The notes under the pieces: generated by a model | What the model was told of the DNA's origin: nothing | What the model saw: the letters and a program-made list of their open reading frames with translations, nothing else | The model's database searches: none | Shown: positions 5,629 through 42,314 of the stretch, piece after piece | How positions within the stretch are numbered: the stretch's first letter is position 1 | How the letters are laid out: the number at the start of each line of letters is the position of its first letter | Program-made: the position numbers and the translations under genes | Origin: Hysterium pulicare CBS 123377 | Taxonomy: Eukaryota; Ascomycota; Dothideomycetes; Hysteriales; Hysteriaceae | DNA length: 64,000 bases | Direction: 5' to 3' | Assembly (NCBI GenBank): GCA_000467715.1 | Contig: AJFK01000509.1 | Span: forward strand, 84,361-148,360

Positions 5629-7122
5629 TTACTCTTGTTCCAATTGCTCTTCGATCTCTTCGTTTTCGTCCTCTTGCGCTTGCCCTCCTGGCGCGAAGGC
5701 TTGCATTCCTGGCACGTATCCTTGAAAGAATTCAATCATTTTCCCCTCCCACCACCAAATGGAATTTTCATCGATTCCTTCTCTCTTTATCCATCTCCAG
5801 TTGTCACCTTCACCTAGGCGAGCAACACCAACATCAACCAACGGAAACCTAAAGTCGTCACCTGTACCTGCATCAAGCTCATGCCACTTTTTCTTTGTAA
5901 AAAAGCTATACATGTAATCGAGCGGAACGGGGTATCGGATCATGTTCTCTGTATAGGAATACATCCCGTTGGGATATTGAAAGTGGATCTCTGGCCTGGC
6001 CTGCAATCCTACGACACCCTTTTCCGGATGAAGGCGCCAGTGAACCACCGACTTGGTAATATACTCTTCCCACGACCAGCCGATCTCTGGATCGGAAGCC
6101 GTATCGGCTATCCTGGAATGGTAAGGCTCTTTACGCACGGCGGGCGATCTGAATTTCCAATGGTAAAAGGCATGAGCAATCTCGTGAACCACAGTTATAG
6201 CCAGAGTCCAATTGAGACGAAGATCCTGGCATGGTGTCCGCTGCTCCTTTGGCAGCTGAAGGTATGACATAAATTCCTCATGAAGACATATATAACTATA
6301 CTTCTGCTGAGCGTAGGTTACGGGAACTTTATCACATAACGTGGTCACATCACAATCAATCCTCTCGAGGCTGTTGGAGTGATATCCCATCCACTGATAT
6401 CCTTCCATTTCACGATTCGGCCTTCCAAAGAAAAAGTAGATCCGCGATGCAATTGCGTGGAAACGGCTTTGGACCCCTTGATACGCTTTATCGGGAACCA
6501 ACACCTTGCCGCTGTTCTCGATCACGCGCCATTGATTGTGAGGATGCGGTACCTCCTTCCCGTAAAGAACATGCTTCCACCAATCGGACACAGATCGCTC
6601 TGTAAGAAACAAGCTCGCGAGGCGAAGAGCGGGTTGTAGTTCTGTCCAAAGTTCGTCGTCGCCGCTTCCAGACCATCGGATGAAATTCCGGCGGTCGAAA
6701 ATGGGGTGGAGAGGGTTATCGAGATCACCATTCTGCGGGCCGGGGAGTGGGGCTTCATCGAAGCCTGCTTTGCGCAGCTGGCGGCGAAAAGAGAGGAGTG
6801 GGAGATTGGAGTAAAGCAAAGGCTTCTTGATGTTATCTTCCTCGTCGCTGGAGCTGTCTTCTTGTCGGAAGAGGCCGTCAGGAACTTTGGGATATGAACC
6901 GGTAAGGAATTCGTGAAGTTCTACGCCGGGACTCTTAGATCCAGTCAACCCTTTTCCTGGTTTGGCTACAGAGCTCTCCATGCCGTCGTGTTGCTCAAGG
7001 TAATTACAAACATCAGGAGATGAACACATGACGGCATCGTCAAGTTCCTCGTCGGAACTCTCAGATCCAAGCACGTCGTCTACTGCTTTGATTGCATAGC
7101 TCTCCATGATGTAGTAGTTCAC
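5629..7122 (-). CDS. HExxH zincin-like protein, paralogue A
   Basis: Uninterrupted 497-aa frame, start at 7122 or at a second in-frame ATG at 7107. An acidic Ser/Asp-rich N-terminus (about residues 15-95) precedes the region shared with the two downstream paralogues: GDLDNPLHPIF, a LQPALRLASLFLTERS...WWKHVLYGKE block, then the zinc-protease-like motif VVHEIAHAFYHW. About 25 residues later comes PEIGWSWEEY, where Glu could be the third metal ligand as in gluzincins. The C-terminus ends in a Glu-rich tail. No signal peptide or membrane segment, so probably intracellular. I infer a metallopeptidase fold. Substrate and activity are unknown, and I cannot name a characterised relative. It belongs to a same-strand tandem cluster. 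Confidence 0.8.
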   Translation of the reverse strand: MNYYIMESYAIKAVDDVLGSESSDEELDDAVMCSSPDVCNYLEQHDGMESSVAKPGKGLTGSKSPGVELHEFLTGSYPKVPDGLFRQEDSSSDEEDNIKKPLLYSNLPLLSFRRQLRKAGFDEAPLPGPQNGDLDNPLHPIFDRRNFIRWSGSGDDELWTELQPALRLASLFLTERSVSDWWKHVLYGKEVPHPHNQWRVIENSGKVLVPDKAYQGVQSRFHAIASRIYFFFGRPNREMEGYQWMGYHSNSLERIDCDVTTLCDKVPVTYAQQKYSYICLHEEFMSYLQLPKEQRTPCQDLRLNWTLAITVVHEIAHAFYHWKFRSPAVRKEPYHSRIADTASDPEIGWSWEEYITKSVVHWRLHPEKGVVGLQARPEIHFQYPNGMYSYTENMIRYPVPLDYMYSFFTKKKWHELDAGTGDDFRFPLVDVGVARLGEGDNWRWIKREGIDENSIWWWEGKMIEFFQGYVPGMQAFAPGGQAQEDENEEIEEQLEQE

Positions 7123-7433
7123 AACGTGATTACACGCTGGGAAGTGTTGTATCTTAACAGGCTGTTTGGTGGAGGTAAGTAATCAAGGTTAGGGTTAGAG
7201 AAGCTCGGCTTTTCAAAAGGCATTTTACATTCATGCTGATAGTGATCCAGGTATTAGCGAGTCAATTTTGGTATATTCAAAAAGGCATGTGAATTTAAAC
7301 AAGGTAATCTTCATCAAGAAAGGGTTTCCATTCACTGCTTGCTATTCACTAATGCAGTTACGGTTTCTCTCGTTCATTCCATCTGATTCTTCTATTCACT
7401 TTTTCGTCTACTCAGCTCTATTCCGTAACTTCA
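7123..7433. other. Spacer within zincin cluster
   Basis: Upstream region of paralogue A, reaching the 3' end of the truncated copy. Short AT-rich stretches; no gene seen. Confidence 0.5.
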
Positions 7434-8054
7434 TCATCCCTCTCTACGACTGTTCGCGCTGGTCACCCTCCTACCACCTATCACAGACTTTCGTTTCGGC
7501 TTCAAAGTCGACGGGTTCTTATCCTTCTCGGCCTTTTGCTCCAGCACTTTGTCCACGTTTCGTTCAAGGAGCCTCAAATTCATAGACTCCCAGTAGCACA
7601 TGCACTCTTGAGCTTCTTCCTCATTGTCTGGACCCCAATCTCTACGGTCATCCAATTCCCCAGTAACCCACTCCCACTCATCCGCCGAACAAAACCGTGC
7701 AATTCCCACGTTCGGGGGTTGAAAGTAGAAGAATTCCGTCTTGGCATCCCCTTCTAGACCAGCGAGAGCCTCCCAATTCTTCTTCCAGAAAAACTGGTGT
7801 AAGTAATCGGCACTCACTGGATACAAGATACAATTACGACCAAACACGATACGCTCCGTCTCAGTCTTTACCGTAAGTTGAGCATCCTGCACACAGACGC
7901 CTTCCCGAGCAACCAGGGAACCCCATATCTTGGCATTCATGATGCAGTATTCCCACGAATGACCGATTTCGGGCAGGAAGCGAGTAAGTGCGCTGATCAG
8001 AGAGTTGCTTATAAGATATCTTGAGCGTAGCTTTCTGTAAGGAATGATAGTCAA
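7434..8054 (-). pseudogene. Truncated zincin-like paralogue (C-terminal half only)
   Basis: A 206-aa open frame whose part below about 7975 matches the C-terminal halves of the neighbours: LPEIGHSWEYCIMNAKIW (compare PEIGWSWEEY and PEMGVSWECN), then LYPVSADYLHQFFWKKNWEAL, NVGIARF and WEWVTGEL, ending in a basic tail. The HExxH half and the conserved N-terminal GDLDN and WW blocks are absent. The roughly 30 residues in front of PEIGHSWE (starting MTIIPYRKLRSRY) have no counterpart in the other copies. Without the zinc motif it cannot be an active zincin. A truncated duplicate is the simplest reading; expression as a short protein cannot be excluded. Confidence 0.7.
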
Positions 8055-8067
8055 TCATTCTATTATA

Positions 8068-8310
8068 CTATCTAAGATTGATCTTCCTCCGTTTTGATCT
8101 TCCCTGAAGATCGGACCGCTCAGAAGTCGAAATCCAAAGCCACCTCTCCTCCTTATTCTCAAAGTCATAAGCAACACCGGCATCAGCACGGGCAAACATC
8201 TCGTTGTCCCTGCGGCAGCGAGTCGAAGTACTTTTCGTAACTGTCGTTGATATACATATCTCAAAATTGAAGTAAGTTTGTTGCAGCAAGAAAGACTGAA
8301 GCGAAAGCAA
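8068..8310 (-). pseudogene. Decayed relic of a second zincin-like C-terminus
   Basis: This stretch encodes ADAGVAYDFENKEERWLWIS, which lines up with the C-terminal GVARLGEGDNWRWI of paralogue A and the GLVEEDGIWQWIGDARV of paralogue B. Just upstream, in another frame, YINDSYEKYFDSLPQG resembles the preceding block YLHQFFWKKNWEALAG of the truncated copy. The two parts are in different frames, indicating a frameshift. No HExxH region is found. I read it as the remains of another cluster member lying head to tail with the truncated copy. Short matches, so moderate confidence. Confidence 0.4.
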
Positions 8311-8625
8311 GTATGTTGACCTAAACTCTGCCAGTTTATGGTGTCGCTCAATCGACTATTTTGTTCTAGACATATCAGTAAGCAATTTCGGAGTTTGAGC
8401 GGGCAAGCGCTAGTTGACACAATGGGCTTCTTGATTAGGACATGGCAATCTCCAACAATGGAAACTGAATACGGCACAAGGCGGATTGATCTCATGACTA
8501 TCTACCTAAACGTCAACGCTGTACGGCAATATGCAAAACAGACATAAAAGTGAACCAAAAAAGCAGTAAGATTCCCATAAATACCCTTGTAACCGAGATA
8601 GTAATGAAAAAGGACACTGGCTTTG
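8311..8625. other. Spacer within zincin cluster
   Basis: Between the relic and the stop of paralogue B. No convincing reading frame or repeat. Confidence 0.45.
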
Positions 8626-9819
8626 TCATTGCGGACGTGGCCTTAACCTGGCGCTAGACCAAATCTCCTGCTCTGTTCTCTCGTCCATTTTCCGTTTTCT
8701 AGGCGCCCGCCATGAGGGATCCTTCTCGTTCGCCTTCTTCTCTAGCTTGGCTAGATCTATATCTTCTGCATAGATGGCTAACAGAGTCTTCCTGTTTTCA
8801 ATTTCCTCATAAAGTTTCTTCTCAGTTTCTCTATGCAGACCCTCCACCACCCGTGCATCGCCGATCCATTGCCAAATCCCATCCTCCTCCACAAGACCCA
8901 TGGTCATATAGGGCACTTTAAAGCCATCTCTTCCATCTACTCCCGGCAATCCTTGCGCATCCCATGTCGATTTGAACATGAATTTGTGCGCCCAGGTAGC
9001 TTGGATCGGAAACATGATATAGCTGTATAAATACACGGCCGGGCCTCTCGGTAGGTGTATGACTGGATCAGCCAGGTTGGTGATGACCCCTTCAGTCGGA
9101 CTTATATACATGTGGACAGAGGCATCAAGAACATTGCATTCCCAGGATACGCCCATTTCTGGACGCCAATTCTCGGAAAGGGAATGATGTGGCTCCGCCG
9201 CATAGACCTGACCCTTGGCTCGAAAATAGAATGCATGAGCGACTTCGTGAACAAGGGTCGTGGCGAAATTCCAATACCACATCGCATCACGCGATGGAGT
9301 GCGATCTGACGCTTTCTGACTGATATATTCAAGCCAGTTGCTGTGTACGGTAATGTTGTAATTACCGTTTTCACCGGGCTGGAACTGGGCAACGGGCAAC
9401 CGACCATCCTCCTTGATACCCAAATATGCGAAGAGGATAGTAGTCGAGGGGGCCATTTGCCGCAGTTCATCTTGCACAATGTCGTAGGCTTCTGGCAAAT
9501 CTTCGTTTTTATGCTCTTTCAAGTATTCCCTCTCGTCTCTCTCGTCGTATGCAAGCTCGCCATACCACGTGTGTCTCCACCATTTACTTAGCGATCGCTC
9601 TGTAAGATAGAGGCTAGCTACGCGGAGCGCAGGTAGTAAAGCGTGGTATGCCTGTTCACTAAGGTCCCTGAAAGGCCCTTTGTGGGTGAACAGAGGATGC
9701 ACTTCATTGTCCAGATCTCCTTGAGCGGGCCCAGAAAGTTCCACGTCCACCAATCCGTGATCACGCAAATGGCCTTGGATTTGCCACGAAATTGCCAGCA
9801 TGGTGGGATCCTGCTCCAT
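8626..9819 (-). CDS. HExxH zincin-like protein, paralogue B
   Basis: Single-exon 397-aa protein, paralogous to the copies on both sides. In order: GDLDNEVHPLFTHKGPFRDL (residues about 34-53), LLPALRVASLYLTERSLSKWW (about 61-81), the zinc-binding-like motif TLVHEVAHAFYF near the middle, then PEMGVSWE about 27 residues later with the candidate third-ligand Glu, and FPIQATWAHKFMFKSTWD. The C-terminal 60 residues are rich in Lys, Glu and Arg (AKLEKKANEKD) and may be disordered. No signal peptide or membrane helix. Likely a soluble zincin-fold protein; enzymatic function is inferred only from the motif. The start at 9819 fits the N-terminus of paralogue C. Confidence 0.8.
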   Translation of the reverse strand: MEQDPTMLAISWQIQGHLRDHGLVDVELSGPAQGDLDNEVHPLFTHKGPFRDLSEQAYHALLPALRVASLYLTERSLSKWWRHTWYGELAYDERDEREYLKEHKNEDLPEAYDIVQDELRQMAPSTTILFAYLGIKEDGRLPVAQFQPGENGNYNITVHSNWLEYISQKASDRTPSRDAMWYWNFATTLVHEVAHAFYFRAKGQVYAAEPHHSLSENWRPEMGVSWECNVLDASVHMYISPTEGVITNLADPVIHLPRGPAVYLYSYIMFPIQATWAHKFMFKSTWDAQGLPGVDGRDGFKVPYMTMGLVEEDGIWQWIGDARVVEGLHRETEKKLYEEIENRKTLLAIYAEDIDLAKLEKKANEKDPSWRAPRKRKMDERTEQEIWSSARLRPRPQ

Positions 9820-11399
9820 GGTTTACGTATGATTGCGAAAGTTCTTGTTGAAATTTGTTGCTTAGTTGATGAAAATCGAAGTGGTTGCTACAGTGGATTG
9901 GTGGAGGTTGGAAGTGGAGAAAGGAAAGGGATAGGAGTGTAGTAATACTGCAAGAAAGTAATGATTGTAGTTGTTTCATATTGGTAGTACGTTGTGATTA
10001 CATTGGTGATTTGGTGTGAATAAGAACAATAGTATACAGTTTTGGCTTTCAGATGAAACGTGAAGACACGTGATTATACTCACCCCGAACACCTCCCAGC
10101 CTCTTTAAGGTGAGTTGTGCGCACTTCGACAACTTTAGTAAGCCGAATCAGTCCTACACCTAATCATTCCCAGAAACAGTTTGACTTCTTATTCTAGTAT
10201 CGGGCGGGACGAGCTTTATCTTATACCGGTATGAATGAAGTCGAGAAAGAGGAGGCACTAAAGACAGTGAGCTAGATTTGAAACAGAAATTGAACATAGC
10301 GAGAGAGTTGGGGCAGTCAAGTGTGGTCTGTGTATGCTATTCGGATTGTTGCATTGAAGGCTATTCATCTAACGCTGTGTCTTTATAAAGAATGGACTGA
10401 AGGCTCAAAAGGATTGACTGGAGTATATCAGCATTTCACGAGGCCAAGGCACCTTTGATTGGCGCATATCATCAAGTCGATCCTAATATCGAAGTACATC
10501 TATACCGATAACCGATTATCAAGTTCGAGAACTGAAATCTGCTACGTTCAGCCACGCAACTTTTAGGGAAAGAGTCAAATACATGCAGGCAAGATCAAAG
10601 AAGTTGATTCCACCAACGCCGGCCGAGCAGCCTTGAGGCGAGGGTCTCATATCTGACGATCCCAGCTATGATAACCTACCAAGCATCCAAATCCTTCCCG
10701 TCGCCCTCATAAGTTATACAGCACGCGAATTTACTTTCACATCTACTGATGATTGTGATCTAAATCACATACGAGCACATCATCTTCAACCCGAATTTAT
10801 GGATTTGTCATTGATGCTTCGGGTGCCGTGAATTGTCTCCCATACTACGGCAAAAGAGTATTTCCACGGTTAAGGCGTAGCTGAAGTTCGAAATAGTCCT
10901 GGATACAGTACTCCTGGAGCAATCCTAGATCATCGGAGAGGTCGAATAGAACAAGTTATCTCCTTGTCATCAGGTTATCCATCGCATGCAGAAGGCCAGT
11001 ATCAACCATAATTTTAGGGCGTGCTGCAAAGGAAGCGCGTTCGGCATTGTGCTTGAATGTTGTTTGTTATAGGTGAGTTAAGAAGTGCTAGAATAAGTCA
11101 ACAAAGTAAACTGCGTTTGCTCTCAAAGTTAATCCGAGAAGGAAGAGAAACTTTGTGAAGTTACTGATGAGCGAAGGAATGAGATGGATTAAACTAGCCG
11201 TGACTAATACCTTATGATGTCACCCTGTACATGATCCGGGTCCATGAGCTTCCACAGCCCCCAGGGACCTCCTTCCTTGTCTTCGTAAATGACAGATTTC
11301 GCAGTGCATGTCAAAGATCGAGCATTGCGAGAAGAGTTGCGAGATCCGGGCGGTTCAACAAATGGGTTAGGCAACGCGCTTGCGTGTAAAATCTCGCGG
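9820..11399. other. Intergenic region within zincin cluster
   Basis: Upstream of paralogue B. Short stop-ridden frames only, with no recognisable gene, RNA or repeat. Its length leaves room for another lost copy, but only the adjacent 11.4-11.5 kb segment shows any resemblance. Confidence 0.4.
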
Positions 11400-11525
11400 C
11401 AAATCGAAGGGCTCCATCGAATACGAACGCATTCGAAAAACCCGGGTTGTCATCCATCCTTCCATTGTATCTTCGTGGAAGGCAGGGGGAAATGCATGAG
11501 CTATGATTCAGTCGAATGCAGCCTC
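11400..11525 (-). pseudogene. Possible relic of a zincin HExxH region
   Basis: On the minus strand, bases 11491-11520 read like a broken zinc motif: an in-frame TGA where the Glu would be, followed by IIAHAF, comparable with VHEIAHAF in the neighbours. About 45 bases further a different frame gives DNPGFSNAFVFDG, loosely like the E-[MI]-G-x-S-W-E block. The spacing between the two is shorter than in the intact paralogues. Frames are broken, so if real this is an old pseudogene fragment. The resemblance is short and could be chance. Confidence 0.25.
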
Positions 11526-11790
11526 CTGGGAATAGTTAGGAGAGTGTCAATTGGTTGGACTCGTCAGGACTGCTTACTTGGTTTGTAATAAGTTGGGATT
11601 GGATGAAGGCAAAGAAATCGGGGCGATAGAGGTGCTTTATACAATCAAAGAACAGAGATTGTTAGTTGCAGAAGGTAGTGAGAACTCTCGCGCAATAGCA
11701 GCTGAGATTTTGAATTGCCCTAACTAGTATATCGGACGAATAGTCAATCGGAAGCCTGCTCGTCGTTTCGCAAAGTAGAATCATGAAAGC

Positions 11791-12966
11791 CTAAGGATTT
11801 GATGAGTTTCGACGAGAGGTTTGTCGAAGAGGATACTTCTTTCGCACCCCATGCTCCACCGGGTCAGAAGGGTCTGGCTCCCACGGCGAATCAACTTCCA
11901 TTTCCTTCTTCTCTATCTTTGCGAGCTCTTTTTCCTCCTCCATATCGAGTGCCATCGTTTTCAGAACTCCAATGCCGTTATAGAGAATTGTCTCCGATCT
12001 TTCCACATAGCGAGCGATCTTTTTGGGGTCTGAGGTCCATTTCCACTTGTCGTAGGAAAGATATGGATTCCATGATACTAGCCCCATGTTCATATACGGC
12101 AATCGAAACCCATCGTTTGGTAAGCCATCGCTTTCCCATGTTGATTTGAAAAGCATTTTGTGCACCCATAGTGCCTGTACCGGAAATTGAACACAACTCG
12201 CTGCTATCATAGGTGGTCCTTTCGGCACATGTACTACTGGCATATACATGGCGTCTCTGATGCCAAATCGATCACAAATAGTAAAGTTGGTGACGCCGTC
12301 GAGAGTAGCGCGCTCCCAAGAATAACCCATTTCCGCTACATCCTCAGTAAGAATGGCATATGGCTCCGGTATCAGATGTTTCGCAATCCAATGGAAGGCG
12401 TGTGCGACTTCGTGGACCATCGTAACAGCAAACCCCCAGTAAAATATGGCGTCGGCTGAGGGTGATCGATACGATTTATTCTGCTGGATGTATCTGAGCC
12501 ATTTAATGTTGAAGCCAATATCATACTGGTGCTTTCCGCGTCTTCTCCATCGTGCGTGGACCGGACGCTTAAAAGTCTCGAACTTCATGGTGGTCCTATC
12601 GGCCAATTTTTGGAGTTGGTTGTGTACGGCCTTGCTAGCTTCTGCAGATTTCTCCTTCTCGTTCTCCTTCAAATACCACTTGCCGGTTTCGGGGTCTTCG
12701 ATTAGTTCGCCGTAATAAACGTGTTTCCACCAGCCCATAAAGGTCTCCCTAGTAAGATATAGAGTCGCCAAACGGAGCGCTGGGAGAAATGCATTGTATG
12801 TTTCCTCGCTTTGGTGTCTCCAGGGTCCATCTCGAGCAAACAGAGGATGTACATCATTATCTAGATCTCCTTCGGGGTTTCCGCCGAGCTCTACCTCCGT
12901 GAAACCATGCTCCCGCAATTTAGGTTCGCAGGCGAGCTTCAGCCTGTACTCTTCGCAAATTTCCAT
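11791..12966 (-). CDS. HExxH zincin-like protein, paralogue C
   Basis: Single-exon 391-aa protein, closest in layout to paralogue B. Shared blocks: GDLDNDVHPLFARDGPWRHQ, LPALRLATLYLTRETFMGWW, VTMVHEVAHAFHWIAKHL with the HExxH motif, AEMGYSWE with the candidate third-ligand Glu, FPVQALWVHKMLFKSTWESD and LPYMNMGLV. The C-terminus is Lys/Glu-rich, then basic. No secretion signal. Same strand and orientation as A and B, consistent with tandem duplication. Divergence outside the motif blocks is considerable, so the duplications are not recent. Function unknown; a metallopeptidase or peptidase-derived binding protein is inferred. Confidence 0.8.
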   Translation of the reverse strand: MEICEEYRLKLACEPKLREHGFTEVELGGNPEGDLDNDVHPLFARDGPWRHQSEETYNAFLPALRLATLYLTRETFMGWWKHVYYGELIEDPETGKWYLKENEKEKSAEASKAVHNQLQKLADRTTMKFETFKRPVHARWRRRGKHQYDIGFNIKWLRYIQQNKSYRSPSADAIFYWGFAVTMVHEVAHAFHWIAKHLIPEPYAILTEDVAEMGYSWERATLDGVTNFTICDRFGIRDAMYMPVVHVPKGPPMIAASCVQFPVQALWVHKMLFKSTWESDGLPNDGFRLPYMNMGLVSWNPYLSYDKWKWTSDPKKIARYVERSETILYNGIGVLKTMALDMEEEKELAKIEKKEMEVDSPWEPDPSDPVEHGVRKKYPLRQTSRRNSSNP

Positions 12967-15900
12967 AGTCGACGCAGCAGAAAGTGAAAGTCTGGTATAG
13001 TGTGTTGTATCGTTAGGTTTGAGTTGTAGAGGTGTGTGGAGGGAAGCGTTTGATTGTAGGAGTTTCTGGGGAGAGACTCAAGAGACGGTTTTGTAAGCAC
13101 GAGGTTGGTAGTGATTACATTGTGAAGTAGCTATGTGTGGCGCTATCATCGACCAGGTCCCACGTGCATTCGTCGGTGATGCTTTTCATACTGTGCACGA
13201 ACAATGTAGCCCGCTCGTGTGACAAAGTAGCGTCTCCAAATATTGGAGGGCGGCGTTTCTAGCATGATTTCGGGGCAGCTGCATTGTATAATAATATTGT
13301 CCATCATTTTATCGTGTCCTATAAGAGTTGTCAGAGGAGTCCAAGAGGGACCTTGTAGAGGCAACTTATACAGCAACAATGTTAGGGCAGAGTAGGTTCC
13401 TTCGAGTTTCCATCAATGTCCAAGCTGGCTTTGCCAGACACACTCCGATCTCGCTAGAGTAACTTGAAAGCGACAGGAAGCCGCAGAATTCTCGCAGGGA
13501 CAAGTTTTGTTTGCTTTTTGCTGTTTGGGCTGCAGTATTGAAACTGTCGCAGTGTACAAACCCTCCATCCTCTTGGATTGCGGTGCGTCAGAATGGTGTG
13601 TTTCCCCTGGCTGACTGCAGAATCTTCTAGATACGAAGCCGACAAATCAGATCTTGATGACGAAGGTCATGTACCGGCCTGGCATGCCTCTATGCTCCGA
13701 CGACTTGTGGCACCCAGGCGCTGCACCCTTAGAGGATGAGCAGTGCCACCTTCGTAAAATGGTCCTATAACTTCGATATGACTCCAGATGATGAGGATCG
13801 GAGTAAACCAGGCCTCTGTTTTCCATTGCCGACGTATGGGTATCGAATAGTATTAGGATCGCGCCGGAGCTACCGATCTACCAGTCATCATTGAAGACGA
13901 AGGACGACCGACGCCTATAGCGTTTGTAAACTAGAACCTGCATACAATGGTCGGATTGGACCCAGTCGGTCCGTAAAACACTATGTATCGGAGTAAGCTT
14001 GAAGACAGCATTCATAGGTATGCCCATGGACCAGAAAGCGCCGTAAAGCTGATGCTACCGTATAGATGCGGGTTTAGTCTGGGGATGTTTGGTTAACTGA
14101 ATAATAGTCTATCCGACGTTTGATAAAACTTGGGCTCATCCGATACCCCTGTAAGGGACTTAAGTCAGTTACTGTCCTGACACTATTTGCATCTTGGCCA
14201 ACCGTTCGTTTTTCAATTACTTTTCTTCCGACTTTCTGATAGTCCGACAACCTTGAATAGACCGGCTGGATTTGTTTGACGTGTTATACCGACCTTCAAT
14301 CAATTCCGGAAGTCCGATCCGTATCGTTATACCTGGGCCTTTAGCCAAAGCTGTTGTACAATGCTTTGAACAAGAGAGGGGATCAGAAGCTGACATTGTA
14401 CAGATATCCCAACAAATGCCTCCTTGACGGGGGTCTCGAAGGCCTCAGAGGTACAGCCGGTTCTCGAACCAAATGATCGTGTAGATTTAATGCTTTTGAA
14501 TCGTCCACGATCAGCTGGACGCCGAACTATCGCAGAGGTTTTCTTCAATCTATTGACAGGTATTTCATCGGATCCGCATCACCCTGGGGTAGATTTGGTT
14601 GTGCTTTCAAATCGTCGGACAACTTGTCCATTCGACTAAGTCCGGGCGGATGTCAGAATAGCAGTCTAACGTGGTTTCGACCGATGATAGAGCCGTAATC
14701 CTTTCATGAACAGAGATATACGATGTGTCCGACGTCGATATAGAAGCTGCCTGCGAACCATCGCAACTGTTGGGACCCTCTTTGGCTGGAAGTATGCTGG
14801 AGTATCCAAGGCTAATAAATGGAAAAGACCAACGTTTTATGTCGAGAGCATACACCTGCTCGGTCTCGCAATACTCAGTGCCTGGATAGGGTAACCAACA
14901 GTCACAGCCCAGTTCGGTCGAACCTGCTTCTTCACTCAACCAAAGCGAACTATTCGAAGACCTCACTTGGAGTCATTCTAGTAACGGACTTGATAGGACT
15001 TGAGATAAGGAAAACGATCGAATTTAGGTTCGATAACCTAGCGCGATGCAATCGACTGCGGAAAGAAGCTTGAGCAAAGGGCAACTTTTGTCGATTTCAA
15101 AACCAATCGCAGCAATGAGAGTTAAACCATATCTTCGCGCCATCGATAGCGCATAGACGAGGCAAGTTGGGAGTAATGACACTAAGTATAATGACAATAG
15201 AGATAACGATCAAGCAGGATTATACTAAGAGCGAACTACCAGTATTGAGAAGCCAAGGACAGGTACATGCAGAGCGGGCACGCTCTAATTGAGTTGAACG
15301 AAAGAGGGCAGATGCTACCTGTGAAGAGTCAGTATCGGTATAATCAATCCAGGATCGCGACGCCGTTGGCTACTCACAAGCTTGGCGGAGATGTTCCGAC
15401 AAATTAATACGACATTATAGAGACTTAGAATGAGACGTCCGCTCGCTCAACTCAACGATAGAATATAGGATGAAAAGTCGTCCCCTTCTCTAGTATCATC
15501 GAACGTGGAGAATATGTCAAGGCTAGCCGTTCAAGTCGACGTTGTGTGCCTACCGAACTCGAAGCGCTGGATCCGTATGCCTAGCGCCTTCGGTCGAATT
15601 CCTGCTAATGCGCAAGGTCGGAGGCTAAATGAAGGTACGAGCGGAGGCCAACGTAGGCTTATTGATGCTAGCAGAAGAGAGGAAGGCAGTATCCGGAGGC
15701 TAAGCTTTGAGTGTGGAGATGCCGACTAGTTTGCTATCCCCCAGGTCATTTCGAAGGACGATCCGGGAGGGGGGTCTGACGCGACGTGGGTGACCGTAAA
15801 TTTTAGCCCGGCGTGAATCATTAAGGGCTCTGTATTGGTTTTTGTTAGAGAAGGTATGCTGCTAGTAAGCAACTCCTGCGCCCTACCCTAACCAATGAGG

Positions 15901-32982: not shown

Positions 32983-35367
32983 TCATGAACGGGATTCCGG
33001 ATGTTGCTCAGGATGTTGCTCGGGATGTTGCTCAGGATGTTGCTCGGGATGTTGCTCAGGATGTTGCTCAGGATACTCCTCGGGGTGTGGTTGCAAATGT
33101 TGGTCAGGATACTCCTCAGCGTGTGGTTGCAAATGCTGCTCAGGATGGATCTCCGAAAGCGGCGCTAGAGTAGAGAGAGTATTCTCCTCCGAAGGTGGTT
33201 CGTAAATCTCGCCATGCCCCAATGCCCACGTTTCCAGCTGCTCGGTCGTTGGGTCCGAAATTGCATCCGAGACGGCGGTGAGGGCGCCGCTCGGAATGGT
33301 GCTATTTCCGCTAGGACCGCGACTGTGGACGGGATCAAAATGTTGGCCTTGCACTTGGAACATGCCGTCATCGCCTGGCAATTCGTGCACGTTGGCGAGC
33401 ATCGGTGAGGTTGGGGTCTTTCGCCCTGTTGCACCACGGGAGCCGGATGAGTTCCTTGTTGTTCGTCTCTTATGACGGTCATCGAAGTACTCAGCCATTT
33501 GGCTATTCATGCTTCGTGGGGTTGAGGCCATGCCTGAATCGGAGGGTGGAGATTCCAGCTCTACGACCTCAGGCGGGCTCTCCAGTTCTGAAGGTGGTAT
33601 CTCGTGGATCGGTGGGAATGGGACGTGGTCCTTTTGGTCCCGACCGCCGTAGTATCCCGTCATGGAGGCGCCGGGTGAGCTGGGAGGATTCGAGTCGAGT
33701 TCGCTTGCGCGTCGTTTTCTGCTAACCTCGTCGCCTGCTAGAGTAGTGTCATAGTCGCTAGACTCAATATTTCCCTCTTTGGCCTTTTTATCTCGGCCAC
33801 GCCATCTCCAGAAGCAGAAGCCGCCTAGAACAAGGAGCAGAGCAACTATACCAATAGCTATGCCAACAATTGCAGCTGGCGAGAGACCTGACCCTCCGTG
33901 CCCTGGGTGTTGTGTTGTGGCTGGAGGTGGCGGTTCCACGTAGTTCGCTGAGTGTATCGTCACGATATGAGGTGCTGGCATTGGATCTGAGAAGTTCGCC
34001 GGGGCTACCATGAAATTATTGTGTTCGTAATCGACCACAATGTAGGCCTCCTGGAGAAATGCACGGCCGAGGACATATTCACCAGAGGACGAGCGTCTGA
34101 TTGGGAAGTATTTGGTGGCATTTGTGTAGATAGGAAATGATGCCTCTAAGTCAAAAGCTGAGTATGGAAGGACTATAGATGTGAAGTTGTTGCTAGGATT
34201 TTCACTGCTTCCAATCTTGAACGATACTGTAGCGTTCTGGTCTATATTTTTCGAGTGTGAAGTAGCATTGACGATGTATAGTGCAGTGGACTTGTCGTAG
34301 GTTAACTGGAACACATCGGCGAATTGGTCGCATATCGCCTGAGGTAGCCATAGGTAGGGCAGAGTGGAGTCAATGACGGCAGAAAACCCGCCCGTGGGCT
34401 GGGTTAGGGAAACCACGTTCGACTGGTCATTGGGTGTAACTTCGATTGATTGAACACCGACAACGAGTGAATTATTGGTGGTAGGCATATCTATCGTAAC
34501 GCCATGGGTATTAAATCGGGATTGATCGTAACCTCCTAAGACTAAGCTTGCTAGAACACCTTTGCTGTTGTTACCTAGAAATCATTAGCAACCGCAATAA
34601 TGACTTGAAATGACCATTGCATATTAATCCCTTGATCGATGCTAACACATATTCATCGACAAGAGGCGCGGTCTAGAAACTGTACATGAGACAATGAAGT
34701 AGTACATATGGACATCAAGCCAAGCAAATGCAATAGACAGTAACTCACGATAATAGGCGCCTGCCGTGTAACCATACGACAAGCTTGGTATTTGATTTGA
34801 AGCGTTGTAATCGGCAAGAAAGGTGTTTTTGGGTCCCCCTCCATAATCCACTGGCCGGACCGCTAAACCAAAAGAACCCATGAAGAAGTCCTTGGTATTG
34901 ATCTCGGCGACCAGTTGCTGGGGTAGCTGAAGAGAGTTTTTTGAGTCGGGTCCTAGACCAACGGTGTCAAAGCCGTAGGAGCCATTTGGATTCGAGTCCG
35001 GGGTTAGATCCGGGAAAAAGGGTAGGGACGGCAAGTTGTAGAGGCCGGCTTCCTGCCAGCTTGTGGATGAAGAGGCTTCAAATCCAAGATCTTGTCTTGA
35101 CTGGAATGGCAGAACTCCACGATTAACGGCGCACTTTGTCTGGTCTGGATATGTACACCAATTGGCTTGCAGAGGGACCAGAATTACAGACCCAGAGGTG
35201 GAGATGAGGATCTTGAAGTTTTGTCCAGTAATAGATTGGCCATCGGAGCCAACATTGATAACGAACGTCGACCAGGAGCCATCGTTGCCGTCAAAGTCTC
35301 CACTAGGAGCAAATGAGTAGGGTAACAAGAGAGTGGTCGTGTTCTGGGTTGAGTTTTGGAGGGACAT
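32983..35367 (-). CDS. Membrane-anchored pepsin-fold protein with altered active site
   Basis: Two exons, 35367-34749 and 34574-32983, with a 174-nt intron (GTGAGT...TTCTAG), give 736 aa. Residues about 20-415 follow the fungal A1-aspartic-peptidase-like layout: GDFDGNDGSWSTFVINVGS, FGFD-like GSYGFDTVGLG, FFMGSFGLAVRP, SLSYGYTAGAYYR, LASLVLGGYDQSRF and YVLGRAFLQEAYIVVDYEHN. The first catalytic DTG is replaced by ISTSGS (near residue 56) and the second reads DST (Asp275). At least the first aspartate is missing, so proteolysis is unlikely. One transmembrane helix (about 438-462) is followed by a 270-residue cytoplasmic-type tail rich in Ser, Pro and acids, ending in HPEQ repeats. No classical signal peptide is visible at the chosen ATG, so a further upstream exon is possible. 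Confidence 0.8.
33001..33144. repeat. 12-base tandem repeat encoding HPEQ-like units
   Basis: Six near-identical 12-base units at 33001-33072 (ATGTTGCTCAGG with a CA/CG variant) encode HPEQ on the minus strand. Two 36-base higher-order units follow (33073-33108 and 33109-33144), themselves made of three diverged 12-base units (DQHLQPHPEEYP type). They lie at the extreme C-terminus of the pepsin-like protein. The repeat keeps frame, so copy number can change without frameshift. Confidence 0.9.
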
Positions 35368-36930
35368 GGTGGAGGAGAAGCATGGCGGATTTGGAGGGAA
35401 AAAGAGAGAGCATGCAAGCAGGAGTTAAGGCCTGCGGTCACATAGCTGGAGACGGAAGCATAGCCTAGCTTTGGGGGCAGGATGATAGCTCAAGAAAATG
35501 CGGCTGGAATGCTAGAACAGATGAATAAAAGGAATGCTATAAAGCACGTAAGCTAGCATATCACATGTGGAAGAGGCAGCGGGAGCTGTAGGCTGAGCAG
35601 CTATCTAATTCTGGACTGTGTGTCGAGCCACAAGTTTGCCCCGCCCGCATCCCCGAAGGGTGGGGTTTGGAGCTCATAGGCACGATGTGCAGGTTGTGGG
35701 AGGCACAAGCCATATCACCTGCGGCTGGTCTCTGCCGTGAGTGGATTGCGATGGGCTGCCGCGTTGGAGGCACAGCGATGGCGAGGTGGGGATGCATATG
35801 TGGTGTGGAGAGGAATATCGCTCAGTAGTGGCGGGCACATGTCGTGAACTCAGGTGCGCCGGACATGGCTTAGCCTGGTTTGCTGGTCTAGCTCATTGGC
35901 GGCAAGAGTCAGGGATCGTTCCGTCCCGATGGTGAGGCCTTGCCAAGCCCCGTGTGTTCTCTCGCCGCTCGGCAAACCGACCTCTTACACATCATCGGGC
36001 AGCATCAACGTGTGAATCTGATCCAACCATCAGCCCCCAATATCTCTGTGGCCCCCAAAGAAACACGGGCAGCCATAATAAGCCCGGAGCTGCATCCATC
36101 CTCCACGTCAACACCTTCGTAACAATGCACCCAGCTAGCGTTCTCGGGTTGCTGCATCAACTCGACTTCGCAGCCAAGCAGCCTTCTCCAACTCACCTCG
36201 GATGCCTTCGTCCCCCACGTCCATAGTGCTGCTCGGGATGCTCGTTCTTCTGGGTTCGTCACGTCAGCTAAACACCCCCGCTAGCCTTCTCAACGTCTGG
36301 CGGGGTCATGGGCAACGCCCCTGCCAATCTCCCTACCAGGTCTAGTGAGGCTGTATGTCTGCCCTCATCGAGCTCTGGGCCTATTCATCAATGCCATCGA
36401 GAACCAATTCGCCTTGTGTAAGCTACATGCTCCTCCCTGCCGGACCTCCGCTTTGGCGCCCATTCCCGAGGATGGGACGGTATCATCGTCCTCATGGCTG
36501 AAGCCTTTGCCAAAGGCGGCCAGGTTCCGCTCAAGGCAACTCAATTGGTCACTGCTTTTTGCACCTCTTCCAACTCTTCCAGCTCTTCCAGCTCTTGGAG
36601 CCTTGTCATGCCTTTCATTGCTCTTATACCCTGCGCTTTGCTCTTCGTTGTTTAGGTTTGGAGACCCAATTCATCTCTCCAGCCTTGTGTAAGTTAACTG
36701 TCTCTTTTAATCGTGTGTAGCCTTGTGTCAATCCCCCTGGCCTTGAGTGTCAAGCCTCGATCTCTGTTTACTCTCTGTGTCACCCAGGGCGTAATTCCTG
36801 TACAACTGTCGAACCAATTCATAAGTGTCCATATCGATTGCACAATTTCCTCCATGCGCCTCATCACGTGTTTCAGACTAACCCAGCTCATCTTCAGTCT
36901 TCGGCCCCCTCGGCGACTCGTTAAGCCGAC
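35368..36930. other. Divergent intergenic region
   Basis: Upstream of both the pepsin-like gene and the mucin gene. Contains short frames and CT-rich stretches (for example a repeated CTTCCAGCT near 36575-36595). Presumably holds both promoters and a long mucin 5' UTR. No gene recognised. Confidence 0.5.
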
Positions 36931-39900
36931 ATGGGCATTCTTTCGTTCCCGATGCTTTGTATTCTGACAATTCTCGCCTTTCTCGGCGGAGTGACGGGCA
37001 ACAACGTTTCCATAGGAACCCTACAGCCTTCTACCTCATCGTCCTGGATACCGACATCAGCACCCCCTCCAACTTGTGCAGCACAAACAATCACTCTAGA
37101 GCACACAGTCACATGTACCGAAACACAAACCTCGACATGCACTGAATATCGTACGAAAACGTCCACGTGTACTGAATATAAGACGAAAACGACAACATGT
37201 ACCGAGTATTTCTGGAATACAACCACCGTCTACGCAACTCTGACCGATTATCGGACGAGCATCTTCACTACGGTTTCTACTGATCTAGAATTCAGTACTA
37301 AATACGAGACTGTTCCAACTATCATTTACTCGGTATGTCGCCTCACCTGAGCTCCTTTATCAGGATCTCGATGCTGACATCTCAGACCGATTACTTAACC
37401 AGCATTTTGACTACTGTTTCCACAGACCTGGAATATAGTACAAAATATGAGACTGTTCCAACCGTTATTTATTCGGTAAGTCGCTCTATCCATGCTCTTT
37501 GCTAAAGGCATGAATGCTGATATCTCAGACCGATTATGTGACAAGCGTTTTGACCACTGTTTCCACGGATCTAGAATATAGCTATATCTACTCCACTGAG
37601 GTAAGCTATATCTATTTCTAAGCATTTGCAAATCGGTTATATATTTCATGGGCCTAAGAAGCTGTGCATGCCCGCTCTTAGCAAGTTGAGCGTCGTATGT
37701 CGAGCTTATCCGAGCTCTGGAATAACACTTGAAGGGCCAACTCCGCATTGAGGGCATCACTTATATCATGCCTTTCTCGTCCAAGATTTGGACTAGGAGA
37801 CAATAGGCTTATACCTAGAGTCATGAAATACTCTACATACGGTGCTTTCATTCTGTCTTACCCATGCTAACTTCTCTAGACCGACATTAAAGTATGTTCC
37901 AGGCCTCCGATTATGGTCTCAAGGCCCCTCACCATCTAACTCGACCTCTAGACGGATTTCAAAACGGTACCATCATACATCTACTCGACCGAGGTATGCG
38001 TCAACCACAATACCCTCTCTATTTTAAATTTACATGCTAACTTTCTAAGACTGATATTGAAGTATGTCCCAAATCCTTCAACTATGAAACTACGCCCTCT
38101 AACCTAATATTCAGACCGATTTCAAGACGGTACCCTCATATATTTACTCGACTGAGGTATGCGTCATTTACACCACCTAACATGGCTCTTCTTTAAGCAA
38201 GCTAACTTTTATAGACTGATATTGAAGTATGCATCAGACCTCATAACTACAGAAATCGCTTCCCTAACTCAGTTCTTAGACGGATTTCGTGACGGTGCCA
38301 TCATATGTTTATTCGACTGAGGTACGTATTGATTACAGAACTTACTATGCTAAGTTTCTACACATGCTGACTCTTCTCAGACTGATATTGAAGTATGTTC
38401 ATCCTTGAAACCACGATGTTTTCTCAACTAATGTACTCTTGAGACGGACTTCGTGACAGTGTCCTCCTATATCTATTCTACCGAGGTTTGAGTCTCTTAT
38501 CCTCATGCATGATAGTAATTGGCTAAGAACACGACATAGATTGATACTGTTCCAACGTACATTTATTCGACAGAGGTATTTGTTGACACTCATTTCGGGA
38601 ATTTCCGCTGTGCTAATATGTCTTCAAGACGGACTTCGTGACTGTTTCATCCTATGTGTATTCCACCGAGGTACGGATCCCCGACTTTCGATATAGAAGA
38701 TGAAGCTCAGTTTTAACCACAGATCGATACGGTCCCCACGTACATTTACTCCACAGAGGTATTTGTTATAACCCGTTTCGAAGTTCTAACCGTACTAAAA
38801 TGTATCCAAGACCGACTTCGTGACTGTCCCATCATATGTATTTTCTACCGAGGTACGGGGCTCCTCCATTCGCTGCGGAATTTTAAACTCACTTGTAGCC
38901 ACAGATCGATACGGTCCCAACGTATATATATTCCACAGAGGTAGTTTTTAGCTCAATTCGGAATTCTGACCTTGCTAATTTACCTTTAGACGGATTTTGT
39001 GACCGTCCCATCATACGTCTATTCTACGGAGGTAAGCGTTATGTACTGTCTTACAACCAATGAGAATGAATGTGAGCTAACTTATTGCCACAGATCGATT
39101 ATTCCACAGAGGTACTCCTTCAATCAAATTGCGTTCTGAGTCCCTACTAATGTGTCACGAAGACGGATTATGTGACGGTGCCGTCGTACATTTACTCTAC
39201 CGAGGTATTTCACCTACTTAAAGTTGCCAAACCAATGCGAAGGCTGATTCGGTATATAGATTGATACTGTTCCAACGTATATTTACTCAACAGAGGTAAA
39301 GAAACCCACTATCCTTGTAATTGCCACGCTAAAACGTCTTCAGATTAATACTGTTCCTACATATATCACGGAGGTCAGTTATTCTCATAGAATAGTGTCA
39401 CGACGATCATGACTCATCAACGTCTTGCCTACCAATTCCACCAAATTCATCCATATAACATATAAGTTTGGGTTCGGATGCAAAGACTAATTTACATTGC
39501 AGACTATCCCCACGACCATTGAAGAAACTATCACCACAGCTTTATCGTTCTTTTACACCACGACATCGATTAGCGTGACAACTTATTCGACGACACTGAC
39601 GCAAATCATAATCTACACGACAACGGCTTCAGGAAGTATCGTGACCGTCGTTTCGACAAGCTTTGTGCCAACCGTAATAACGTCGACTTTGACGCAAACG
39701 CTCACGATAGCAACGCCGAGTCCCAGCCCATTTACTATCGAGACACCAGGACCTACCTCTGTTCTTACGATCGAAACTCCAGGCCCTACCTCGATCGAAA
39801 CGGTCGAAACACCTGGCCCAACTTCCTTTATTACGATAACTAGCATTTCTGTGACAACTCTCACGCTTTCCGCTTCAACGATTACGACGACTCAAACGGT

Positions 39901-42314
39901 AACGGAATCTGGATCGACTCGCACGATTATCAGTACTTCAGTCGTTCCTCCGACTACGATAGTATCAACGCTGACCTCCCTGATCACGACGCCCGGACCA
40001 ACTTCCTTCATCACTCTTACGAGCACTTTTGTAACGACTTTAACGCTATCGGGTTCGACAGTCACGACTACTCAAACTATAACTGAATCTGGATCGACCC
40101 GCACGGTCATTTCTACTTCAGTCGCCCCTCCAACCACGATATTGTCTACTCTGACTTCCGTCGTTACGACCCCGGGCCCCATTTCTATCCAAACCGTCCC
40201 GGGCCCGACTTCCTTCATTACCCTTACTAGCACTTTTGTCACAACTTTAACTCTATCCGCATCCACGATCACCACGACTCAAACTCTGACTGAATCTGGA
40301 TCGACTCGCACGGTTATTTCCACTTCAGTCGTTCCTCCAAGCACTATCACATCTACTCTGATTTCACTAATTACGACCCCTGGCCCCACTTCCATTCAGA
40401 CTGTCCCCGGCCCGACGTCCTTCGTAACAGTTTTGAGTACTTTTGTAACAACACTAATTGTACCTCCGTCCACGATCACGACTGTACAGACTATTACGCA
40501 GTCGGGCTCAACGCAAACAATCACTACGACTTCAGTTGTCCCGCCGATTACAATTACATCGTCTTTCACCTCCCTAGTGATTATTCCTGGGCCAACAAGC
40601 ATATTTACTAGCCCTGTCACACTTCCAGGGTCTACTAGGACTATCATTCAGACAACCGTGACCACATTTTTTGTAACTCAAACTCTACCCCCGCAGACGA
40701 TACCCGTCACATCGACAGTAACCGAAGGGGGCTCAACTCAAACGATCACTACGATTTCGATAGTCTCAGCGACCACGATCGTGTCCATATCGGTGTCGAC
40801 TTTGACGATTACTTCTCTTTCCGTTGAAACGCTTCCAGTCACGCAGGTCATCACTCAACTCTTACCTACTACGATTGTCTCTGTTGAGACGGTCGCTCCT
40901 AGTGGACCTGGCTCTTCTGGCTCTTCTGGAGTCGGCTCTATTGGAACTCAGGGCTCTACTGGAGTCGGCTCTATTGGAACTCAGGGCTCTACTGGAATTG
41001 GCTCGACTGGAATTGGCTCGACTGGAATTGGCTCGACTGGACCTAGCACTACTGGACCCAGCTCTTCTGGAATCGCCTCCTCTATATCATGTTCAAGTGC
41101 CTGCCATGTTGATGTGACTGCTACTGAGGTTGCCTATCCCGGCAGTGTCTCAGTGATCACTGTTTCTGTTCCAATCACGAAAGTAATTGTTACGGTATCG
41201 TCGCTCCCTGGTGGTGGCTTCGCTACAATTGGCTCAGCGACTACCACTCAGCCGTTACCCAGCCAAACGTCTTTCTTAACATGGGTCTTTGATTCAGTGA
41301 CCATGTAAGTTTACTACAAAATCAGGCTTTGCAGATAGGTTGACATTCCACAGGACATGGCCGACTACCTATATCGCATACGAGCAATTCAGTCACATCA
41401 CCGTCCGGCCCGTAGCCACTGGATGTGATACATCAACCGGAACGCTACGTCTACCAGCCACAACCGACCCATCATCTTTCGTCTTTCCGACAGCGAGCGT
41501 CACTGAGCCAGGGTCGCCCCCGACGGCTCTCATCAGTTATCTCAACGGTTTATCCACAGTGATCGAACAGCTTGGCGGCCCAATTGGGTCATCCTGCGAT
41601 CCCATTATTCGGGGGACCCACACTGCAAGTACCAGTACCCTAGGCCCAACGATTTATATCACCACCGTGTCTCAATTAGAGGCCGTAACTACCACGACTA
41701 CGGCACAATACGATTTTGCAACTTCTCAAGTCCCGCCTCCTCCTCCGCTAGTTACAACAGCTCAAGGACAGTCACAGAGCAGCAATGGTGGCGGCACTAA
41801 CCCGCAAACTAGCAATCCTCCGCCGCCACCACCACATAGCAGCATCCCTTCGAGCAGCGTCGTACAGAGCAGTTCCCCTCCGAGCAGCGCTCCTGCGCCG
41901 GGTACGTCTTCAGCTCTTTCTCAACCATCATCAGTGGCAATCTCTTCCCTCGCCTCTTCTCCCACTCTCCCATCAACTCAACTCTCATCCGGCCTCATTT
42001 CATCCGGACTTGTGTCTTCAGGAGGTACATCATCACCACCCACTCCTCTCACTCCCATCTCGAGCACTATTCTAACTCTTTTGCGCCTTACAGGTACCTC
42101 GACACTGGTCGCTCCAGGCAGCACCGCCCTCTCAGGCACAAACACAAACGTCATCACGTCCAGGACCTCCTCACCACCGCCATCTCCCTCGTCTAGCTCT
42201 TCCTCAACCCTCTCCGGCAACGCTGCGGTGCGTGCTCGGGGAGAGATCGTATTTGGAGGCGTGGAGGGTTGGTTGCTTGGAGCGGCTGGGTTAGGACTCG
42301 GATGGGGGCTTTGA
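36931..42314 (+). CDS. GPI-anchored mucin-like surface protein with tandem microexons
   Basis: Predicted 1300-aa Thr/Ser-rich cell-surface protein. Signal peptide MGILSFPMLCILTILAFLGG; C-terminal hydrophobic tail (WLLGAAGLGLGWGL) preceded by small residues, as expected for GPI attachment. Twenty-three exons. Large ones: 36931-37332, 37386-37475, 37529-37600, 39503-41304 and 41354-42314. Eighteen tiny exons lie between 37880 and 39373. Exons 1-22 are all in phase 0 up to the final intron, and the total of 3903 nt is divisible by three. The N-terminal domain has four Cys-Thr-Glu repeats (TCTETQTSTCTEYRTKT) and TDY..T..TTVSTDLE units. The array encodes repeats of TDFVTVPSYIYSTE type. Exon 22 holds long Thr-rich tandem repeats. 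The last exon has SSPPSS-type linkers. A wall adhesin or stalk role is inferred. Splice forms need RNA evidence. Confidence 0.8.
37880..39373 (+). repeat. Tandem array of about nine two-exon units (microexons)
   Basis: Exons, all with AG before and GT after: 37880-37891, 37952-37993, 38050-38061, 38115-38156, 38215-38226, 38280-38321, 38381-38392, 38444-38485, 38540-38575, 38629-38670, 38723-38758, 38811-38852, 38905-38940, 38990-39031, 39094-39111, 39163-39204, 39260-39295 and 39344-39373. Lengths alternate 12/42 four times, then 36/42 three times, 18/42 and 36/30. The 42-nt exons encode TDF[KV]TV[PS]SY[IV]YSTE, the 36-nt exons IDTVPTYIYSTE and the 12-nt exons TDI[EK]. Introns are 48-62 nt. 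Every length is a multiple of three. Confidence 0.85.
39824..40611 (+). repeat. Coding tandem repeat of 60-69 residues in the mucin
   Basis: Four diverged copies in exon 22, each starting SF[IV]T, running through TTLTLSASTITTTQT, ESGSTRT[IV]ISTSV, PPTTI.STLTSL and closing with TTPGPT, some with an added SIQTVPGPT. A fifth, more diverged part follows. Almost entirely Thr, Ser, Pro and Val: typical O-glycosylated stalk. Confidence 0.85.
40928..41038 (+). repeat. 33-base and 15-base tandem repeats in the mucin
   Basis: Two identical 33-base units (40928-40960 and 40961-40993), then three identical 15-base units starting GGAATTGGCTCGACT (40994-41038), encoding GVGSIGTQGST and GIGST. The perfect identity suggests recent expansion or strand slippage. 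Confidence 0.95.

Follow-up and report, generated by a model that had tools for sequence, protein, structure and literature searches.

A gene on the forward strand of a 64,000-nucleotide stretch of the genome of Hysterium pulicare CBS 123377 (contig AJFK01000509.1, positions 84,361 to 148,360; hereafter the window, with positions counted from its first letter) carries an array of 18 consecutive microexons of 12 to 42 nucleotides (nt). The model of the whole gene (36931..42314) has 23 exons, and its spliced frame is open from ATG to stop, 1300 codons plus the stop or 3903 coding nt, with a predicted protein of 1300 amino acids. As judged from the sequence, the array is real, selected and unusual, and the proposal of a mucin-like surface gene with symmetric microexons, made in an earlier sequence-only reading of the same DNA, is supported as real; the further proposal of that reading, that exon subsets could be skipped to give stalks of many lengths, is not supported here. 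The array is probably best explained as a tandem series of exon-plus-intron cassettes, most of whose microexons would be routinely included, in a gene for a threonine/serine-rich cell-surface protein of the glycosylphosphatidylinositol (GPI) type of a Dothideomycete-like fungus, this degree of likelihood belonging to the explanation taken as a whole.

The 18 exons occupy 37880-39373, each open, in phase 0 and bounded by AG and GT, and all were found where, and in the sizes in which, the sequence-only reading had placed them: 12, 42, 12, 42, 12, 42, 12, 42, 36, 42, 36, 42, 36, 42, 18, 42, 36 and 30 nt, in order. The 12-nt exons are microexon 1 (37880..37891), which encodes TDIK, and microexons 3 (38050..38061), 5 (38215..38226) and 7 (38381..38392), which encode TDIE with identical DNA. 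The 42-nt exon occurs in eight copies, 163 to 185 nt apart: microexons 2 (37952..37993) and 4 (38115..38156) encode TDFKTVPSYIYSTE, microexons 6 (38280..38321) and 14 (38990..39031) encode TDFVTVPSYVYSTE, and microexons 8 (38444..38485), 10 (38629..38670), 12 (38811..38852) and 16 (39163..39204) encode TDFVTVSSYIYSTE, TDFVTVSSYVYSTE, TDFVTVPSYVFSTE and TDYVTVPSYIYSTE, respectively. The 36-nt exons, microexons 9 (38540..38575), 11 (38723..38758), 13 (38905..38940) and 17 (39260..39295), all encode IDTVPTYIYSTE. Microexon 15 (39094..39111, 18 nt, IDYSTE) aligns as a 36-nt exon minus 18 nt in frame, and microexon 18 (39344..39373, 30 nt, INTVPTYITE) is, by eye, a 36-nt exon minus 6 nt in frame. 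The 17 introns between the microexons measure 48-62 nt, for which the earlier description of tight introns holds, and the outer flanking introns, intron 3 (37601..37879) and intron 21 (39374..39502), at which the array ends, measure 279 and 129 nt. Tandem duplication of exon plus intron, as proposed earlier, is borne out, but the nine or so two-exon units then counted are eight full units and one variant, because the ninth consists of 36-nt and 30-nt exons and has no 42-nt exon. Ahead of microexon 13 lies a pair of tandem acceptors (TAG/CCACAG, 38893-38905), the first of which would move the start of the exon to 38899 and add Pro-Gln in frame.

Pairwise differences among the eight 42-nt copies number 40, 26 and 212 at codon positions 1, 2 and 3, and among the four 36-nt copies 0, 0 and 31. 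The amino acids of both sets are under strong purifying selection: the ratio of nonsynonymous to synonymous change (dN/dS) is 0.033 in the 42-nt copies, with dS about 2.5, and the 36-nt copies have zero nonsynonymous differences at a proportion of synonymous differences (pS) of 0.60, silent sites thus being near-saturated. At codon positions 1 and 2 together 6 of 52 columns vary, and at position 3 21 of 26 do (Fisher p 2e-9). In an alignment of the eight units, the 42-nt exon is invariant at 22 of its 28 first and second codon positions and at 1 of its 14 third positions; outside the splice motifs of the first intron 1 of 35 interior columns is invariant, and after the second donor 3 of 42 are, a class to which the second branch motif still belongs. 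Across the same units the GT, the CTAA and the AG of the first intron are all invariant. A CTNA motif whose A lies 8-22 nt upstream of the 3' end is present in each of the 18 introns in 37892-39502, every one of which has such a motif at 9-13 nt; shuffled introns, searched over an equal window of 8-22 nt, had one in 6.0 of 18 on average and in 12 at most (1000 shuffles). The stricter CTAA occurs in 14 of the 18, as against a mean of 1.9 and a maximum of 8 in the shuffles. The interiors of the introns have average identities of 0.60-0.63 by class against 0.59 when shuffled, with some pairs clearly related, which qualifies the earlier statement that introns were duplicated along with the exons. 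Exon lengths vary by multiples of three only, and the lengths of the 17 inner introns are spread 5/6/6 over the residues modulo 3. Retention of any single one of the 19 introns in 37601-39502 leads to a stop or a frameshift, except for the 48-nt intron 39296-39343; this is the sole array intron that is both a multiple of three and open, and its retention would add 16 residues. Given that reading frame, donor, branch motif and acceptor are all preserved, which is the mark of functioning exons and introns, the microexons can be taken as kept by selection as spliced, translated exons.

The cassette pattern begins upstream of the microexons, earlier than the sequence-only reading had it: tandem cassettes with a 143-nt period occupy 37235-37600 in exons 1-3. 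These are the 3' part of exon 1 (36931..37332, 402 nt), which is the first copy of a TDY...TVP..IYS repeat, exon 2 (37386..37475, 90 nt), a further copy, and exon 3 (37529..37600, 72 nt), a shortened one; they may represent an older form of the microexon repeat. In the alignment of units the 12- and 18-nt exons are placed on the 36-nt exon with in-frame gaps, and TDFVTVPSYIYSTE, IDTVPTYIYSTE and ..YETVPTVIYS can be read as versions of one motif, which suggests that the two-exon unit is probably a higher-order repeat derived from one ancestral exon and its intron. Identity is 0.82 between neighbouring 42-nt copies and 0.72-0.76 between distant ones, as expected of local tandem duplication. It is suggested that an ancestral exon ending in ..TVPxYIYS(TE), together with a short phase-0 intron, was duplicated in tandem as one piece and gave rise both to the 143-nt units of exons 1-3 and to the two-exon unit of a short and a 42-nt exon, and that some short exons arose by in-frame losses of 6, 18 or 24 nt. 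Thereafter the size of the array would shift mainly by rare duplication or deletion of whole cassettes in the DNA, kept in frame by their phase-0 borders.

Other sources of the array and of its divergence were considered. Repeat-induced point mutation (RIP) is not supported as the cause of divergence, third-position changes in the 42-nt copies comprising 112 transitions and 100 transversions; by the thresholds assumed here, the dinucleotide indices of the array and of the intron interiors are RIP-like beside those of the window. Decayed units were sought in the 279-nt and 129-nt introns, where 0 of 22 local alignments with 11 repeat segments scored above the 99th percentile for shuffled sequence. 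The 3'-terminal 17 nt of the longer of these two introns belong to the same repeat family as the ends of the array introns. Introner-like elements are near-identical intron copies in unrelated genes of one genome; the array DNA matched only itself in the genome at E <= 0.001, in a search that would miss diverged copies, and multiplication of this kind is therefore not supported. Nor are the introns stwintrons in the straightforward sense, since each is complete in donor, branch motif and acceptor and an exon stands between it and the next, nested readings not having been searched systematically.

Under the explanation preferred here, each short intron would be recognised as a unit by intron definition, so that all 18 microexons would normally be spliced in to give a 192-residue, acidic, tyrosine-rich repeat domain conserved for its own sequence, while exons with weak sites, 38444-38485 in particular, may to some extent be skipped. 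In Pezizomycotina, splice sites pair across short introns by intron definition (PMC6616335; here and below, published work is cited from excerpts of the papers). It is possible that the array serves programmed combinatorial splicing, in which many combinations of skipped and included exons would yield many protein lengths, as in the schistosome MEG and SmPoMuc genes, which are similarly designed and differentially spliced. In its favour, every one of the 18 exons is symmetric, donors and acceptors that look weak occur at various points of the array, and the frame stays open when the whole array is left out. However, this is considered unlikely, and less likely than routine inclusion, for several reasons: first, exon symmetry, which the sequence-only reading had used as an argument for skipping, fails as one, because exons copied as phase-0 cassettes are always symmetric, and copies of any other kind would disrupt the frame; being forced by the origin of the array, it is not independent evidence of skipping. 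Second, GT, AG and the branch motif are present at every array intron, albeit with some weak sites, and those copies that can be tested are constrained. Third, exon skipping is comparatively low in fungi (PMC6142364). Fourth, the 2^18 possible combinations would give only 95 distinct lengths, zero included. Finally, the high conservation of the peptide suggests that its sequence matters and not its length alone: tyrosine makes up 14% of the array and 1% of the stalk that follows it, and aspartate plus glutamate 17% and 2%, and a conserved repeat of this composition argues against a mere length spacer.

Several observations nevertheless weigh against routine inclusion of a duplicated, selected array and have to be set beside this. 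Acceptors of the non-YAG type, AAG or GAG, number 5 of 18 in the array (AAG before microexons 3, 10, 12 and 16, GAG before microexon 8) as against 2 of 19 in a small control, whose 19 introns (CAG 9, TAG 8, AAG 1, GAG 1) are too few for a firm contrast. Several donors depart from the fungal consensus: GTATTT (three times, after microexons 9, 11 and 16), GTAGTT (microexon 13), GTACTC (microexon 15), GTTTGA (microexon 8), GTAAAG and GTCAGT (microexon 18). In a donor control GTAGTT, GTACTC and GTTTGA alone came out low, and GTATTT and GTCAGT did not; it comprised 16 introns with a noisy profile and is not relied on. By eye, the GAG acceptor and GTTTGA donor of microexon 8 are the weakest pair of the array. 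The non-YAG acceptors together with the several weak-looking donors would fit optional exons, and there is a precedent for microexon skipping in this group of fungi, the 15-nt exon II of Aspergillus niger rtnA being alternatively skipped (PMC6616335). The 12-nt exons, with four copies of which three are identical, are too short for a good test of selection. The 36-nt copies are without the neighbour effect of the 42-nt copies, their identities being 0.85, 0.83 and 0.92 at unit distances 1, 2 and 3. Lastly, the array was seen in none of the at least six related proteins found, which are described below.

SmPoMuc of Schistosoma mansoni is, by analogy, the nearest known design found. Its genes form an animal multigene family and carry, near the 5' end, as many as 20 copies of a 27-bp exon in tandem, in units of about 1 kb with introns more than 94% identical, and its transcripts contain from 1 to 100 repeats, for which trans-splicing was inferred by the authors (Roger et al. 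2008, PMC2576457). Like it, the window gene is a mucin gene with very small exons repeated in tandem, introns included, in its 5' part. It differs in that no second copy was found, in its 48-62-nt introns and in its exons of 12-42 nt arranged in a two-exon unit; near-identity of introns is likewise absent from the window gene, whose intron interiors lie on average close to shuffled sequence. The MEG genes, the wider class, have numerous exons of 6-81 bp whose lengths are mostly multiples of three and which are called symmetrical; they encode secreted-type proteins whose variation arises by differential splicing, and have introns of 100 to almost 5000 bp, with microexons forming up to 75% of the coding sequence (PMC10526429, PMC4015677). 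The 18 short multiple-of-three exons and the secreted-type protein of the window gene resemble these, but its introns are of about 50 nt and its array makes up about 15% of the coding nucleotides, the high share in MEG genes being a typical rather than a strict feature. That the gene is a fungal counterpart of MEG and SmPoMuc, an old, selected, symmetric array with uneven splice sites in which regulated combinatorial splicing would vary an exposed repeat domain, independently of animals and under intron definition, is slightly more doubtful again than combinatorial splicing as such.

Microexons are found in ordinary fungal genes, such as the P450 genes of Phanerochaete (PMC1184071) and rtnA, and these are alike in having exons of a few codons between short introns; unlike the window gene, no long tandem array of homologous microexons is described for them in the excerpts cited. 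The SP7 effectors of arbuscular mycorrhizal fungi were rejected as a parallel, since the excerpt cited describes repeats that are imperfect, with a conserved intron preceding the first of them, and no exon array. No fungal microexon array was found in searches of the open-licence literature, as judged by titles and the openings of abstracts, so that the earlier remark that no described case was known fits fungi as far as these searches reach and not life as a whole, in view of the schistosome SmPoMuc genes.

Variation in length might instead arise in the DNA, strains differing in cassette number by unequal exchange while splicing is constitutive. Tandem cassettes with phase-0 borders would lend themselves to this, neighbouring 42-nt copies are closer than distant ones, and the similarity between a 159-nt stretch at 38610 and its copy at 38792 is 79%. 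This is quite improbable as the explanation of the array: near-saturated silent sites and intron interiors that are on average near shuffled identity make the copies look old, with no sign of recent exchange, in contrast to the introns of SmPoMuc with their identity above 94%.

It is more improbable still that 37601-39502 is a single long intron with relics of old exons. The frame does stay open when this interval is removed, and the array is flanked by the two longer introns of 279 and 129 nt. However, a dN/dS of about 0.03 and length changes that preserve the frame, at near-saturated silent divergence, require long-lasting translation, and a branch motif is present in 18 of 18 introns.

Chance was assessed by the longest chain that can be read under a loose rule (AG, an open multiple-of-three exon of 12-45 nt in phase 0, GT, and introns of 45-65 nt). 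By this rule 18 exons can be chained in the array; 200 first-order Markov sequences gave a mean of 3.0 and at most 7, and the longest chain in a control from the same genome (248.5 kb outside the gene, both strands) was 12. Under a strict rule (donors GTR, acceptors HAG) the array gives 9, the simulated maximum is 4 and the genome control 5; the fall from 18 to 9 is due to the exclusion of the GAG acceptor before 38444 and of the donors GTTTGA (after 38485) and GTCAGT (after 39373). Although AG and GT are common dinucleotides and a loose chain of 12 occurs elsewhere, the likelihood that chance or an assembly artefact lies behind the array is negligible, given the excess of its chain over every simulated one, the bias by codon position and a divergence between copies too great for assembly duplicates.

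The predicted protein begins with a signal-peptide-like start and a cysteine-containing N-terminal part with five cysteines, followed by the repeat array (192 amino acids, 576 of the 3903 coding nt), a threonine/serine-rich stalk, a conserved head with shared cysteines and YPG motifs, a serine/proline-rich tail and a GPI-like end, the signal peptide and the GPI tail being judged by eye. The stalk and the first half of the head are encoded by exon 22 (39503..41304, 1802 nt), and the second half of the head, the tail and the GPI-like C-terminus by exon 23 (41354..42314). The repeat region lies in the N-terminal half and would be membrane-distal if the C-terminus is GPI-anchored. Exon 22 has intronless repeats of its own at 39737-39819, 39992-40452 and 40919-41071, with periods of 33, 207 and 15-33 nt, respectively, so that a single gene has both intron-bearing and intronless repeats.

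The window belongs to a 37.2-Mb assembly of 596 contigs and reaches a contig end. Searches of this genome with the DNA of exon 22, the DNA and the peptide of the array, the head and a related protein (P0005) found no paralogue, and the DNA of 36931-39502 matched only itself in the assembly at E <= 0.001, a search by which diverged copies would be missed. The N-terminal part gave one weak match, on contig C433 (E 0.09). Protein searches at E <= 0.001 returned 1, 0 and 6 matches, the first and third among the best 8000 and 7999 candidates, and the second, made with the head only, among the 1622 candidates scored; this second search is not sensitive, as P0001, one of the relatives found, has the head.

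The relatives comprise at least six proteins (P0001 to P0006), of which the three that are named all come from fungi: Lepidopterella palustris (P0002), Plenodomus lingam (P0005) and Ampelomyces quisqualis (P0006). All three are Dothideomycetes. The head of the window protein is 49% identical to that of P0002 over 194 amino acids; the conserved head, with its shared cysteines and YPG, and a similar C-terminal tail unite the window protein with P0001 and P0002, and P0001-P0006 with one another. The gene belongs to an unnamed Dothideomycete family of threonine/serine-rich proteins with a conserved C-terminal head and a GPI-like tail. The window protein and P0001 had no match in Pfam, nor had P0001, P0002, P0003, P0005 and P0006 any in NCBIfam, and no PDB sequence matched an alignment (A3) in which the window protein is not included.

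In P0005 and P0006, whose N-terminal half is annotated, TDFVTVPSYIYSTE repeats are absent; residues about 95-135 of P0006, in this half, hold short repeats of SLVPTT/SLVRTT. P0001 starts at a methionine and looks 5' truncated, and P0002-P0004 do not start with methionine. P0002 is labelled partial and starts with VETDFVTQTTALSFF, about where the array meets exon 22 in the window gene, which is suggestive, though not proof, of an unannotated array in Lepidopterella.

Tandem microexon arrays are known from parasitic flatworms, and the window gene lies in another kingdom. Should splicing follow the pattern read here from the sequence, a fungal spliceosome would process a row of 18 exons of 12-42 nt set apart by introns of some 50 nt, which would be a natural test of the minimum size of an exon under intron definition. 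The gene also keeps apart two ideas: that exon symmetry is a device for alternative splicing, and that it arises as a side effect when cassettes are duplicated. Genes of this kind may be truncated by ordinary gene finders; the Lepidopterella model, labelled partial, begins about where an array would end.

Elsewhere in the window, an aspartic-protease-like gene was recognised by eye at 32983-35424 on the minus strand; it contains a hydrophobic stretch and a C-terminal series of EQHPEQHP repeats. Three neighbouring open reading frames at 5629-13077, also on the minus strand, look related and all contain a VHE(I/V)AHAF motif, which is reminiscent of HExxH metalloproteases.

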